From a virus: DNA of 28,995 nt. The DNA lies in IMG/VR virus record IMGVR_UViG_3300029319_000345, positions 1-28,995 of that record, one strand, 5' to 3'. Positions within the stretch are counted from its first letter, which is position 1, and each line of letters opens with the position of its first letter. Positions 25,533 through 28,710 of this stretch are shown piece after piece. The notes under the pieces are model-generated. The model had not been told where the DNA came from and searched no databases. It saw nothing but the letters and a program-made list of their open reading frames with translations. A program made the translations under genes and the position numbers.

Positions 25533-26752
25533 CAGTAATACACCCCCTTCTCCACGTCGATTTGCGCGTTGACCATACCATGCCAGCCGTTCAGCTTGTT
25601 CTTAGATACACAGATGTGACGCACGGTATTCTCTACCTCGCTTGATCCGGTCTTGCCTATGCCGATGATGATGTCGGCCTCACCAGCCTTACCCGTACGC
25701 GAGTTATCCAGCATAGAGTAGTCAATAAATTGACGGTCGTGTGCGTCAAAGTTTGCCTGACTAACTGCCCAGACCAGTAACTTGTTACGCTTGGCAATCT
25801 CCCGTGCGTAGACATAGGTCTCTTTGAGACGCTCGTCACCACGATTGAAGTCACCCTTGATGCGGAACTTGTCTAGCTGATCCATAAACATGATGTCAGG
25901 CTTGTTCAGCTTGGCGTATTCATCAGCCTCTTCGACAGACGTGCCCACCGAATCCATGACCGTCAGGTATGGTGCAATCTCGTCACGATACTTGACCGCG
26001 AGAGTTGCACGACTCTGCCGCATTTCTTGCTTGGTCAACTCAAAATATGACTGAATGATCCGTAGCTTTATGCGGTCAGCCGGTTCCTCGTTAGCCCAGT
26101 ACACAACCTTGAGTCCCTGCCGGATGTACGACGCAGCAAGGAAGCAGCAGAAAGTTGTCTTGCCAACTTCCGGTCGAGCGAACAGAATGCCGAGGTTGCC
26201 CCTATCTAGTCCGGGAACTTCTTCCTGTAACAGATTGAATTGAAACGGAAAGTCAGGGTCGCCAGTCACGGCGTCAAGTAATTCATCCAAGTCGTTATCC
26301 ACTTCTGTATAGGTTGTTTTGTCAGACATGCGTCCGTCATCAACAGCATCAATAAGGCGTTGCAACTCCCCGAACTCTTCGCTCTCGCCTGTGAAGATTT
26401 CGATAGCCTTCTCACCAATTTGTCGGGCACGATCACGCAACCAGAAGTTACGCACCATGTCGATGTGCATGTCTGTGTTCTCTGGGTTGCCAGACTCAAG
26501 CGTAACGATGATATCGTGTACCTTCTCACGCGCACTGTCGGGCATGGCAGGATTGCGATCATCGAACAACGCAGCTAACTCCGATGATGTCATCGTGTTG
26601 CCATACTTTGTGTGGCTATAGGTCAGCGTGTCGAAGATGTCACGCATCTCTCGCGTGAACATGTCACGATCAAGCGTGTTCTTTACTTGTGAAAAGAATT
26701 CTGCGTTGAGGCAAAAGCCAAGTATCTGTGTGTCAAGCGATACGTTCGTCAA
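25532..26752 (-). CDS. DnaB-like replicative DNA helicase
   Basis: This 406-residue hexameric-type helicase has an N-terminal DnaB-like helical domain (residues 5-60). Its RecA-like motor has Walker A ARPEVGKTT (192-200), a catalytic-Glu region NEEPADR (221-227), Walker B IMFMDQLD (Asp291) and the AVSQ motif after it. The motor is of the SF4 (DnaB/T7 gp4) class. Unlike T7 gp4 it is not fused to a primase and keeps a DnaB-style N domain. The start is a TTG at 26752, inside the end of the primase gene (20-base overlap). AGGG lies about 9 bases ahead and no upstream in-frame ATG fits. It unwinds DNA for the polymerase encoded three genes downstream. Confidence 0.92.
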   Translation of the reverse strand: MTNVSLDTQILGFCLNAEFFSQVKNTLDRDMFTREMRDIFDTLTYSHTKYGNTMTSSELAALFDDRNPAMPDSAREKVHDIIVTLESGNPENTDMHIDMVRNFWLRDRARQIGEKAIEIFTGESEEFGELQRLIDAVDDGRMSDKTTYTEVDNDLDELLDAVTGDPDFPFQFNLLQEEVPGLDRGNLGILFARPEVGKTTFCCFLAASYIRQGLKVVYWANEEPADRIKLRIIQSYFELTKQEMRQSRATLAVKYRDEIAPYLTVMDSVGTSVEEADEYAKLNKPDIMFMDQLDKFRIKGDFNRGDERLKETYVYAREIAKRNKLLVWAVSQANFDAHDRQFIDYSMLDNSRTGKAGEADIIIGIGKTGSSEVENTVRHICVSKNKLNGWHGMVNAQIDVEKGVYY

Positions 26753-27542
26753 TGAACTCGTCCCTTTCGTCGTCCCTCATGTTTTTCAAGTCGTATGGCA
26801 GCACTGCCAAGGATGTCGGCACAAGAAAATGCAAACGTCGAACCATGTCAAGTGCCTTGTCAGTCGCATCCTTGTCCATCGCAATAAACACATGACGATA
26901 CTCGGACAGACGTTTAACATGCTCGTTGAGCAAGTTCGTGCCTAACAGAGCCATGCCTGTGACCTTGTTGCTTATCGCACAGGCACTGGCACAATCCTCT
27001 ACCACAAAGACAACATCTGATGTGCCGCAAACAAACGGCATCTGTGACTTACCATACCGATACCACTTGGGTCTGATGTCACGCAACGCTCTGCCCACGG
27101 CATCTACAACCTTGCGACCATCCCGCACCATGTATACGACGCGGTGGCGCTTGAAGTCGTAGCGAATGTCAGCACGACCTGACAAATATGAGTCATAAGC
27201 ACTGACCTTTTTTACATAAAGCTCTGCATCTATGTTGCGTGACAGGCTCACAAATGTAGATGGTTCTTCAAAAGAGGCCCAGTGAGGATAAGCGACATTC
27301 GGAAATTTTTGCCGGTCTTTTATCAACGCTTGACTAGCGAACTCTTTCGTCAACTTCACACCCGTACGCCCCTTCACGTTACAGTCAGCGTGAAAGCAGT
27401 ACCACAGACGCTGAACTCCGTCATCCGTCACGCTGAACGTGTTCGACTTAGCGCAGACAGGACAATCTGATCGATAACTTGTCAGCGGCTGCATATCAAG
27501 TGATTCAACGTAAGCCGTAAGCCATGACGGGGATTTGGTCAT
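26733..27542 (-). CDS. DNA primase with zinc finger and TOPRIM domain
   Basis: This 269-residue primase makes RNA primers for lagging-strand synthesis. An N-terminal zinc ribbon is visible (Cys27, Cys30, Cys49, Cys54; C-x2-C-x18-C-x4-C). The TOPRIM catalytic core has Glu182 (VFVVEDCASACAI) and Asp223/Asp225 (FIAMDKDAT). The order and size match the primase half of T7 gp4, here as an independent gene. I chose the ATG at 27542 because AAGGTGG lies about 9 bases upstream; the frame from 27602 would add a hydrophobic stretch not expected in primases. It is the first gene of the minus-strand replication operon, next to the divergent regulatory region. Confidence 0.92.
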   Translation of the reverse strand: MTKSPSWLTAYVESLDMQPLTSYRSDCPVCAKSNTFSVTDDGVQRLWYCFHADCNVKGRTGVKLTKEFASQALIKDRQKFPNVAYPHWASFEEPSTFVSLSRNIDAELYVKKVSAYDSYLSGRADIRYDFKRHRVVYMVRDGRKVVDAVGRALRDIRPKWYRYGKSQMPFVCGTSDVVFVVEDCASACAISNKVTGMALLGTNLLNEHVKRLSEYRHVFIAMDKDATDKALDMVRRLHFLVPTSLAVLPYDLKNMRDDERDEFIDERIA

Positions 27543-27671
27543 AAGCGATTCCACCTTCCTATCAGTAACAAGAAGTAACAAACAATGACAAAGAGATGCC
27601 ACGACTCAGACAGCTTGTAAACAAGTAAAGCAAGTAAATGTTCCATGCCGCCACGGTAGACGACAAAGATA

Positions 27672-27686
27672 TTGCTTGACAAGCAA
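27672..27686. promoter_or_regulatory. Perfect 7+1+7 palindrome, candidate operator
   Basis: TTGCTTG-A-CAAGCAA is a perfect inverted repeat with a single central base. It covers the whole -35 box of the rightward promoter, so a bound repressor would block transcription. The ribbon-helix-helix-like protein encoded 170 bases downstream is the obvious candidate ligand (inference). Confidence 0.6.
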
Positions 27687-27704
27687 AAAATATGAGGACA
27701 CTAT
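27676..27704 (+). promoter_or_regulatory. Candidate rightward sigma-70 promoter
   Basis: TTGACA at 27676-27681 is followed by a 17-base spacer and CACTAT at 27699-27704. The -35 box is perfect and the -10 box matches at three of six positions. The predicted start near 27711 lies 18 bases before the first small gene, whose ribosome binding site is GGGAG. Confidence 0.55.
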
Positions 27705-27728
27705 CTATTACCCCTTTGGGAGATACCC

Positions 27729-27899
27729 ATGACAAAAAAAATACAAAAGATAAATCCTGTAGCTAAATCCCTACGGGAGTCTACTTATCGTAACAGGGTA
27801 ATCCAAGACAAAAGAAAAACCCACAGGGATAAGCAGCACAAAAAGGAAATAAGAGATGCCAAGACCTCACAAGATACGAGAAGAGACCAAGACGTATAA
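27729..27899 (+). CDS. Small highly basic phage protein
   Basis: A 56-residue protein reading MTKKIQKINPVAKSLRESTY, then a continuous Lys/Arg/Asp/Gln-rich helix. About four in ten residues are Lys or Arg. The opening NPVAKSLR is a pattern I recall from very small proteins in many marine phages. GGGAG lies 7 bases ahead of the ATG, and the gene follows a candidate promoter. It overlaps the next gene by 44 bases in another frame. The composition suggests nucleic-acid or ribosome contact, but the role is unknown. Confidence 0.7.
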   Translation: MTKKIQKINPVAKSLRESTYRNRVIQDKRKTHRDKQHKKEIRDAKTSQDTRRDQDV

Positions 27900-28071
27900 C
27901 TTGTTGATGACACTACGCCAGTATGATACCTTGGCAAAACACTCACAAGAGATGACAAAACGTGGTCTCGAACAAGTTGCCGTGGCTGATCTCATTCGCG
28001 AGGCAATTGATATTTACATAGAAGCACTTGAAGACGAGGAGTATGAAGGCAGTGTCACAGAGAAAGATTAA
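27856..28071 (+). CDS. Ribbon-helix-helix-like DNA-binding protein
   Basis: This 71-residue protein has the layout of an Arc/CopG-type regulator. A short strand (TKTYNLLMTLRQYDTL, residues 12-27) is followed by a helix, and then a second helix VADLIREAIDIYIEALEDEE. Such proteins dimerise and insert the paired strands into the major groove at inverted or tandem repeats. AAGGA lies about 9 bases ahead of the ATG. The palindrome over the upstream promoter (27672-27686) is a plausible autoregulatory target. It overlaps the preceding small gene by 44 bases and the following gene by about 29. Confidence 0.7.
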   Translation: MPRPHKIREETKTYNLLMTLRQYDTLAKHSQEMTKRGLEQVAVADLIREAIDIYIEALEDEEYEGSVTEKD

Positions 28072-28327
28072 AGTGTTTAAGGATCGTAAGGGTAACGACC
28101 TCATGCCGTACGTTGTATCAGAGAATAATAGACATGAGGTTGTCGCCCCAGTATCATCTGTGCGAATAGGAGAGACAAAACGAGACGCGGTTAAGTCAAA
28201 GCATTGCGTTGATTATCCACGCTGGGTTGCACTGTTTGTAGGACGCAGTCACAATGAATGCACAAAGTGGCTTGACAAGTACAGCAAGGTGGTGCTAAAG
28301 CTGTGTATACCGTACGAGGTCAGGTAG
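28043..28327 (+). CDS. Hypothetical protein
   Basis: A protein of about 94 residues reading MKAVSQRKIKVFKDRKGNDL, then a strand-rich part and a basic end (KVVLKLCIPYEVR). The start is uncertain: the ATG at 28043 lies too close to the GAGGAG at 28036-28041, whereas the in-frame GTG at 28052 is 10 bases from it. The overlap with the regulator gene is about 20-29 bases. No motif recognised. It is the last gene before a strong terminator. Confidence 0.55.
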   Translation: MKAVSQRKIKVFKDRKGNDLMPYVVSENNRHEVVAPVSSVRIGETKRDAVKSKHCVDYPRWVALFVGRSHNECTKWLDKYSKVVLKLCIPYEVR

Positions 28328-28377
28328 TCCTTTCCCGACTTTGTGCGGTACCTCCTTTTGTGGTTAGAATCATTGAG

Positions 28378-28412
28378 CAGGGCTGGTAGAAATACTGGCC
28401 CTGTTCTTTTTT
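28378..28412 (+). terminator. Strong intrinsic terminator
   Basis: An 11-base-pair stem (CAGGGCTGGTA at 28378-28388 with TACTGGCCCTG at 28393-28403, two G-U wobbles) closes a GAAA tetraloop. TTCTTTTTT follows directly. It ends the transcript of the three small genes that start at 27729. Confidence 0.88.
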
Positions 28413-28414
28413 GT

Positions 28415-28443
28415 TTGACAGGGTTAATCGTTATCTGTATGGC
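28415..28443 (+). promoter_or_regulatory. Weak candidate promoter after the terminator
   Basis: A perfect TTGACA at 28415-28420 begins two bases after the terminator T-run. The best -10 at 17-base spacing is TATGGC (28438-28443), only a partial match. Placement after a terminator and ahead of a well-marked gene supports it, but the -10 is poor. Confidence 0.35.
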
Positions 28444-28467: not shown

Positions 28468-28710
28468 ATGGAAGTAATCGTAAAAGATGACGACCGCCGA
28501 CAGCTTCTGAAGGCACACAATGATCTGCGTAACATGATCACCACAATCCACGAGTGCAGCGACATTTGGTTGTCCGATATAGGGAAGCTTGAACATCTGC
28601 AACACATGCTGCATCACGCACTCAAGTTCACCCCACCTGTTGACAGTGACGGTAACAAAATGTGGTATCGTGACTTTGTTTACGCAGAAGAGGTTCCGAC
28701 TGATGACTAG
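28468..28710 (+). CDS. Hypothetical protein, early-region type
   Basis: This 80-residue acidic protein is predicted to be helical (DDRRQLLKAHNDLRNMITTI, residues 8-27), with a His-rich part (LEHLQHMLHHALKF) and an acidic end. AAGGAG lies 9 bases ahead of the ATG. It is the first gene after the terminator, presumably starting a new transcript. It overlaps the next gene by 8 bases. No recognised motif. Confidence 0.6.
   Translation: MEVIVKDDDRRQLLKAHNDLRNMITTIHECSDIWLSDIGKLEHLQHMLHHALKFTPPVDSDGNKMWYRDFVYAEEVPTDD

Follow-up and report, generated by a model that had tools for sequence, protein, structure and literature searches.

A conserved heptamer as a putative shared -35 box between early and replication genes in a clade of viruses related to HMO-2011-type phages

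In lambda-type back-to-back control regions, an early or regulatory gene is transcribed away from the replication genes and the control region lies between the two. The locus studied here is alike in this respect: in a virus record of 28,995 bases, probably a fragment and called the window throughout (that is, the whole stretch analyzed), the early unit points away from the replication genes, with the control region in between. It differs in that no sign of lysogeny or of a second regulator was seen. A second kind of system is the bidirectional promoter of Escherichia coli and Salmonella in which, according to the available parts of the reports by Warman, Grainger, and colleagues, the two directions share a -10 box and the starts are commonly 18 bp apart (PMC12825309, PMC10268837). 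The arrangement proposed below for the window is similar in that one pseudo-symmetric element would serve polymerase in two orientations. It differs in that the -35 box would be shared, with the -10 boxes lying outside it and the predicted starts ~65 bp apart; the candidate -10 boxes of the window are indeed separate (27653-27658 and 27699-27704). If true, a shared -35 box would set this form apart from the promoters with a common -10 box in those parts of the two reports (PMC12825309, PMC10268837).

The primase, helicase, and polymerase of the window are related to those of HMO-2011-type marine phages (HMO-2011, HTVC033P, CRP-1, and others). All 12 matches of the primase were to HMO-2011-type records (27-38% identity), as were the best 12 matches of the polymerase (36-47% identity). 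All annotated genes run in one direction in the stretch shown of HTVC033P, HMO-2011, and CRP-1, whereas the early unit of the window is divergent. The first-pass annotation, made from the letters of the window alone, knew of no ribbon-helix-helix (RHH) regulator of this kind in HMO-2011-type phages. In agreement with this, tblastn of the RHH-like protein against 50,697 phage records gave no relative at E up to 1, and no described regulator of this kind was found for these phages within the literature searched; the available parts of PMC9038755 and PMC12629253 name no repressor or RHH protein.

Gene layout, synteny, and the RHH-like protein

To the left of the control region, the minus strand carries the genes for a DNA primase (26733-27542), a DnaB-like helicase, and a family A polymerase. 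Divergent from the primase, the plus-strand early unit opens with ORF1 (27729-27899), which codes for a basic 56-aa protein with a DUF7230-like Pfam match just below the cut-off (1.1e-5). It continues with the gene for the 71-aa RHH-like protein (27856-28071), overlapping ORF1 by 44 nt, and with ORF3 (91 aa, 28052-28327), which overlaps the end of the RHH gene and is conserved in the window's clade. A terminator-like hairpin of 14 pairs followed by a T run (28375-28406, plus strand) is the likely end of the unit. The divergence of early unit and replication genes, as first annotated, is thus confirmed in the window; the accompanying statement that the first transcript unit encodes an RHH-like protein is right about the unit, although its first gene is the 56-aa ORF and the RHH gene is second. 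Beyond the hairpin, a promoter-like TTGACA-17-TATGGC (28415-28443), without a palindrome, precedes an ORF at 28468.

For the comparison with relatives, 160 loci (window included) were reduced to 89 distinct 235-nt upstream stretches, loci with <240 nt upstream being dropped. A divergent primase gene lies upstream in 85 of the 89; of the four others, L022, L026, and L053 have short upstream sequence (243-430 nt) and L052 has a different neighborhood. When the search was started from the primase, an RHH gene was found in 76 of 80 loci, the contigs of the other four ending 19-252 nt upstream of the primase. The synteny of primase, small ORF, and RHH gene is conserved. Five of the 89 stretches (L022, L047, L052, L111, and L141) contain no TTGAC in the part examined. 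In L047, L111, and L141, the promoter pair is retained farther upstream, separated from the RHH gene by a different, inserted gene.

The 71-aa protein is likely an RHH protein, and the original description of this gene as RHH-like is supported by the predicted structure and by weak family matches in relatives. In an AlphaFold2 monomer model (pLDDT 81.2), an extended N-terminus with no strand formed precedes helices at residues 20-36 and 43-63. A Foldseek search of the PDB with this model gave no matches at E up to 10; a VIA re-examination of its eight top chains listed six entries, all of them RHH proteins, with modest Z values (5.5 for TraM; 5.4, 5.2, and 5.1 for three PutA entries; 4.2 and 4.1 for two Arc entries). 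Taken alone, the window protein matched no RHH or repressor profile, Pfam RHH families included. Among 52 aligned relatives, weak matches were seen to Pfam RHH_3 in 14 (best 0.0066), to RHH_1 in 7, to the NCBIfam ORF56 plasmid copy control family in 3 (1.2e-4), and to phrog_876 "transcriptional repressor" in 14 (3.1e-4). The predicted strand is near-invariant in these 52 relatives, with K12 and Y14 in all of them and T11, T13, N15, L16, and L17 in at least 90%. Solved structures searched by sequence yielded 4 sequences, none of them convincing (best E 0.58, SarX), and an RHH profile search of genome contigs matched 28 stretches, none of them relatives. The protein resembles the PutA DNA-binding domain, Arc, and TraM in ~50 residues predicted to form an extended N-terminal segment and two helices, and in the near-invariance of the strand predicted to contact DNA. 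It differs from them in that the window protein has no Pfam RHH match, weak matches being seen in some relatives, and in that its operator is a candidate. A small, strongly conserved RHH family adjoining the region is a concrete candidate for a regulator. By analogy, the protein likely acts as a regulator through a putative site, a role made plausible by the RHH gene always lying next to the control region; autoregulation by the protein is likewise plausible.

The palindrome and its conservation

The first-pass annotation had drawn attention to a palindromic operator covering a promoter. As it described, TTGCTTGACAAGCAA is a perfect 7+1+7 palindrome, TTGCTTG-A-CAAGCAA (27672-27686, assigned to neither strand), present in a single copy in the window. 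The -35 box TTGACA (27676-27681) lies inside it and is followed, after a 17-base spacer, by the -10 box CACTAT (27699-27704). The second pair, CTTG-TAAA-CAAG (27614-27625), and an additional CAAG (27631-27634) are also present. This second pair falls within a stretch in which the window is longer than its closest relatives: its intergenic stretch measures 186 nt, with ~80 nt extra (27543-27640), whereas the 12 nearest relatives have 100-107 nt. Independent perfect palindromes with 7-base arms and a center of 0-3 bases number three in the window (2600, 13539, and 27672). When the 186-nt intergenic stretch (27543-27728) was put through 1000 dinucleotide shuffles, such a palindrome arose in 15 of them, which makes it unusual for its place, not extraordinary.

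If the 15-bp palindrome were the operator of the RHH protein, the protein would shut off its own promoter by binding there, and perhaps the replication promoter too. A perfect dyad over a promoter, with an RHH gene adjoining and few shuffles giving its equal, speaks for this reading. Comparison with relatives makes it very improbable nonetheless. The TTGAC box is in place in 84 of the 89 distinct upstream stretches, which gave 57 distinct 19-mers around the -35 box, upstream of conserved RHH genes. The full palindrome (arm of 7) occurs in one of the 57, the window itself, and is absent from all others even where RHH gene and promoter are conserved, the outcome that the first-pass annotation had itself set down as a refutation. 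Arms of at least 5 were found in 6 of the 57 and arms of at least 4 in 16; the core with 4-base arms, CTTGACAAG, is present in 16. This core favors the operator reading to a degree, as does the L090 sequence, which one or two substitutions would turn into the window's version of the palindrome. On the other side, the 12 closest relatives include one with an arm of 5, seven with an arm of 4, and four with an arm of 3 (TTGACAA only), and L096, the nearest relative by primase (92%), retains TTGACAA only. Across the dyad, the pairs at positions ±4, 5, 6, and 7 match in 32, 20, 17, and 15 of the 57, vs. 23.7, 17.3, 14.1, and 13.4 expected from column make-up, a modest excess of covariation that is seen at the first flanking pair only. 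Moreover, since the predicted DNA-contacting strand is near-invariant among the 52 relatives, a shared operator would be expected, and the palindrome is not shared. The window's 15-mer also occurs in 111 other viral stretches, none of them with a primase relative; an RHH-like match was obtained in one, and it is weak (L261, E 0.004). Without the primase context, these copies were treated as chance.

The palindrome was therefore rejected as a conserved operator on conservation, while the predicted forward promoter lying over it and its RHH-like neighbor are supported. Whatever site the proposed repressor uses, it is probably not the palindrome, whose outer arms TTGC and GCAA are seen nowhere but in the window and most likely extend the core by chance. 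The operator call was a tempting one, and testing it in relatives both corrects it and shows which parts are retained. The idea that the palindrome arose by inverted copying of the right arm seen in relatives was considered and left as weak: the outside flank aligns with L002 (TTTGTCG), and 66 of 2000 shuffles equal that alignment. Among six relatives tried, shuffles as good were fewer only for L095 (59 of 2000), and the alignment was much worse for L096, L090, and L004 (193, 518, and 211 of 2000, respectively). A second CTTGACAAG at 28271-28279 is explained by coding, as it lies in ORF3 and encodes the Leu-Asp-Lys of a conserved Trp-Leu-Asp-Lys/Arg stretch.

The heptamer TTGACAA as a putative shared -35 box

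At the center of the palindrome, the conserved TTGACAA (27676-27682) can be read as a -35 box in both directions. On the plus strand, TTGACA (27676-27681) together with CACTAT (27699-27704; spacer of 17) would drive the early unit of ORF1, the RHH gene, and ORF3. On the minus strand, TTGTCA (27682-27677) together with TACCGT (27658-27653; spacer of 18) would drive the genes for primase, helicase, and polymerase. The two -35 boxes have all but one of their bases in common, which would keep two polymerases from binding together; the region would accept one polymerase at a time, and early and replication transcription would be coupled. From the observed sequence, conservation pattern, and gene layout we infer promoter activity and mutual exclusion, and on balance we lean toward two divergent sigma70 promoters, early and replication, that share this one heptamer. 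If this is true, these marine phages would separate early from replication transcription by direct polymerase competition.

The window's clade consists of 13 distinct loci (the window and its 12 closest relatives), which are close kin, and their conservation is not independent. Within the clade, TTGACAA is complete in 13 of 13 loci vs. 13 of 71 others. The forward -10 box is kept in every member as TTGACA-17-CACTAT, in keeping with the promoter first annotated over the palindrome. On the minus strand, all 13 loci have a TA...T hexamer at a distance from TTGTCA of exactly 18 bases, and the 80-nt alignment contains no other such hexamer; where a GTCAA remains in the clade, it lacks a TA at the proper distance. 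By sequence, then, an overlapping divergent sigma70 arrangement (two outward -35/-10 pairs with overlapping -35 boxes) occurs in 13 of 13 clade loci. In the relatives, the reverse -10 box is followed by a purine-rich stretch resembling a ribosome site and then by the primase start. The window has diverged at columns common to the other 12 (CATA, TTTTGTC), yet it retains TTGACAA, CACTAT, and the reverse TA...T. The composite pattern has one match in the window and none in 100 shuffles, and in 371 loci it was found in the clade control regions and in two unrelated loci (L265 and L267); as the pattern was derived from the clade, these counts indicate rarity and are not independent proof. Both -10 boxes are weak (CACTAT and TACCGT), and the reverse -35 box matches at 5 of 6 positions. 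A consensus promoter scan, which listed fewer sites than its shuffles did, included neither the forward nor the reverse promoter; the forward one is missing because its -10 box is weak.

The same letters could belong to an ordinary single forward sigma70 promoter whose -35 box falls in the palindrome by chance, with the primase promoter elsewhere and nothing shared. Such a reading draws on the fact that TTGACA-17-(T/C)A...T is an ordinary promoter form found across the family, and on another possible reverse promoter in the window, nearer the primase (TTGTCA at 27591-27586, 18 bases, and TACTGA at 27567-27562). We regard it as somewhat unlikely, given that the whole clade has the reverse TA...T at an unvarying 18 bases and also keeps the A at box position 7, which elsewhere is present in 13 of 71 loci.

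In most clades, two separate back-to-back promoters are found, with the reverse one standing before the primase. The forward promoter of most clades has the form TTGAC-N17/18-TA. The reverse promoter in the rest of the family has this form as well, the first position of its -10 box being T in 63 and the second A in 61 of 67 distinct sequences; five sequences without a separate reverse promoter belong to the window's clade. GTCAA and TTGAC lie 19 bases apart, start to start, in 41 pairs and 18 in 16 pairs, and the -35 boxes of other clades are separate, usually by 13-14 bases. For the wider family, the putative shared -35 box is not the ancestral state. A more elaborate version of the shared -35 box, namely a hard-wired switch in which the box chooses a direction at each binding event, the RHH protein made from the early unit tips the choice, and the box itself was fused, in one clade, from back-to-back promoters that elsewhere in the family remain separate, is a tentative idea that we think unlikely. 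In other clades (L049, L048, and others), the reverse -10 box adjoins the start of the primase so closely that a transcript would be almost leaderless.

Other candidate operators

A different target for the RHH protein would be tandem TTGAC-like units one helical turn apart, represented in other clades by TTGAC-N5-TTGAC, which spans the forward -35 box and the spacer, and in the window by three minus-strand TTGWYA units 10 bases apart (TTGTCA, TTGTTA, TTGTTA) at 27566-27591. Two TTGAC copies exactly 10 apart occur in 35 of the 84 distinct stretches, vs. a mean of 0.01 in mononucleotide shuffles. The downstream copy sits in the spacer of the promoter and is mostly without a good -10 box of its own. 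Of 12 long records, 5 contain the pair; they have it at 6 places in all, of which 5 fall within the control region. The window lacks the TTGAC-N5-TTGAC pair and has the period-10 triple instead, which was equaled in 1 of 1000 shuffles, with a TTGWYA triple in 0 of 2000; the TTGWYA pattern, however, was chosen after viewing the window. The pair is also not universal. A TTGAC pair at 10 or 11 is missing from 49 regions, and of these the window alone has a 10-base TTGWYA pair; its clade relatives have no such array. Furthermore, TTGAC is also the -35 box, which confounds its role. Weighing these points, we find binding of the RHH protein to tandem units quite doubtful, and the array at 27566-27591 is best viewed as a speculative, weaker candidate operator.

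Near the expected transcript start, many relatives carry a short, conserved CC-N3/5-GG element before ORF1 (CCTATAGG and variants; 27710-27722 in the window). It was set aside as an operator, since loci differ in its spacing and, in many, a probable ribosome site overlaps it. Far from the control region, a full-consensus promoter, TTGACA-17-TATAAT (1471-1499), stands among the late genes of the window, just ahead of an ORF at 1521-1865.
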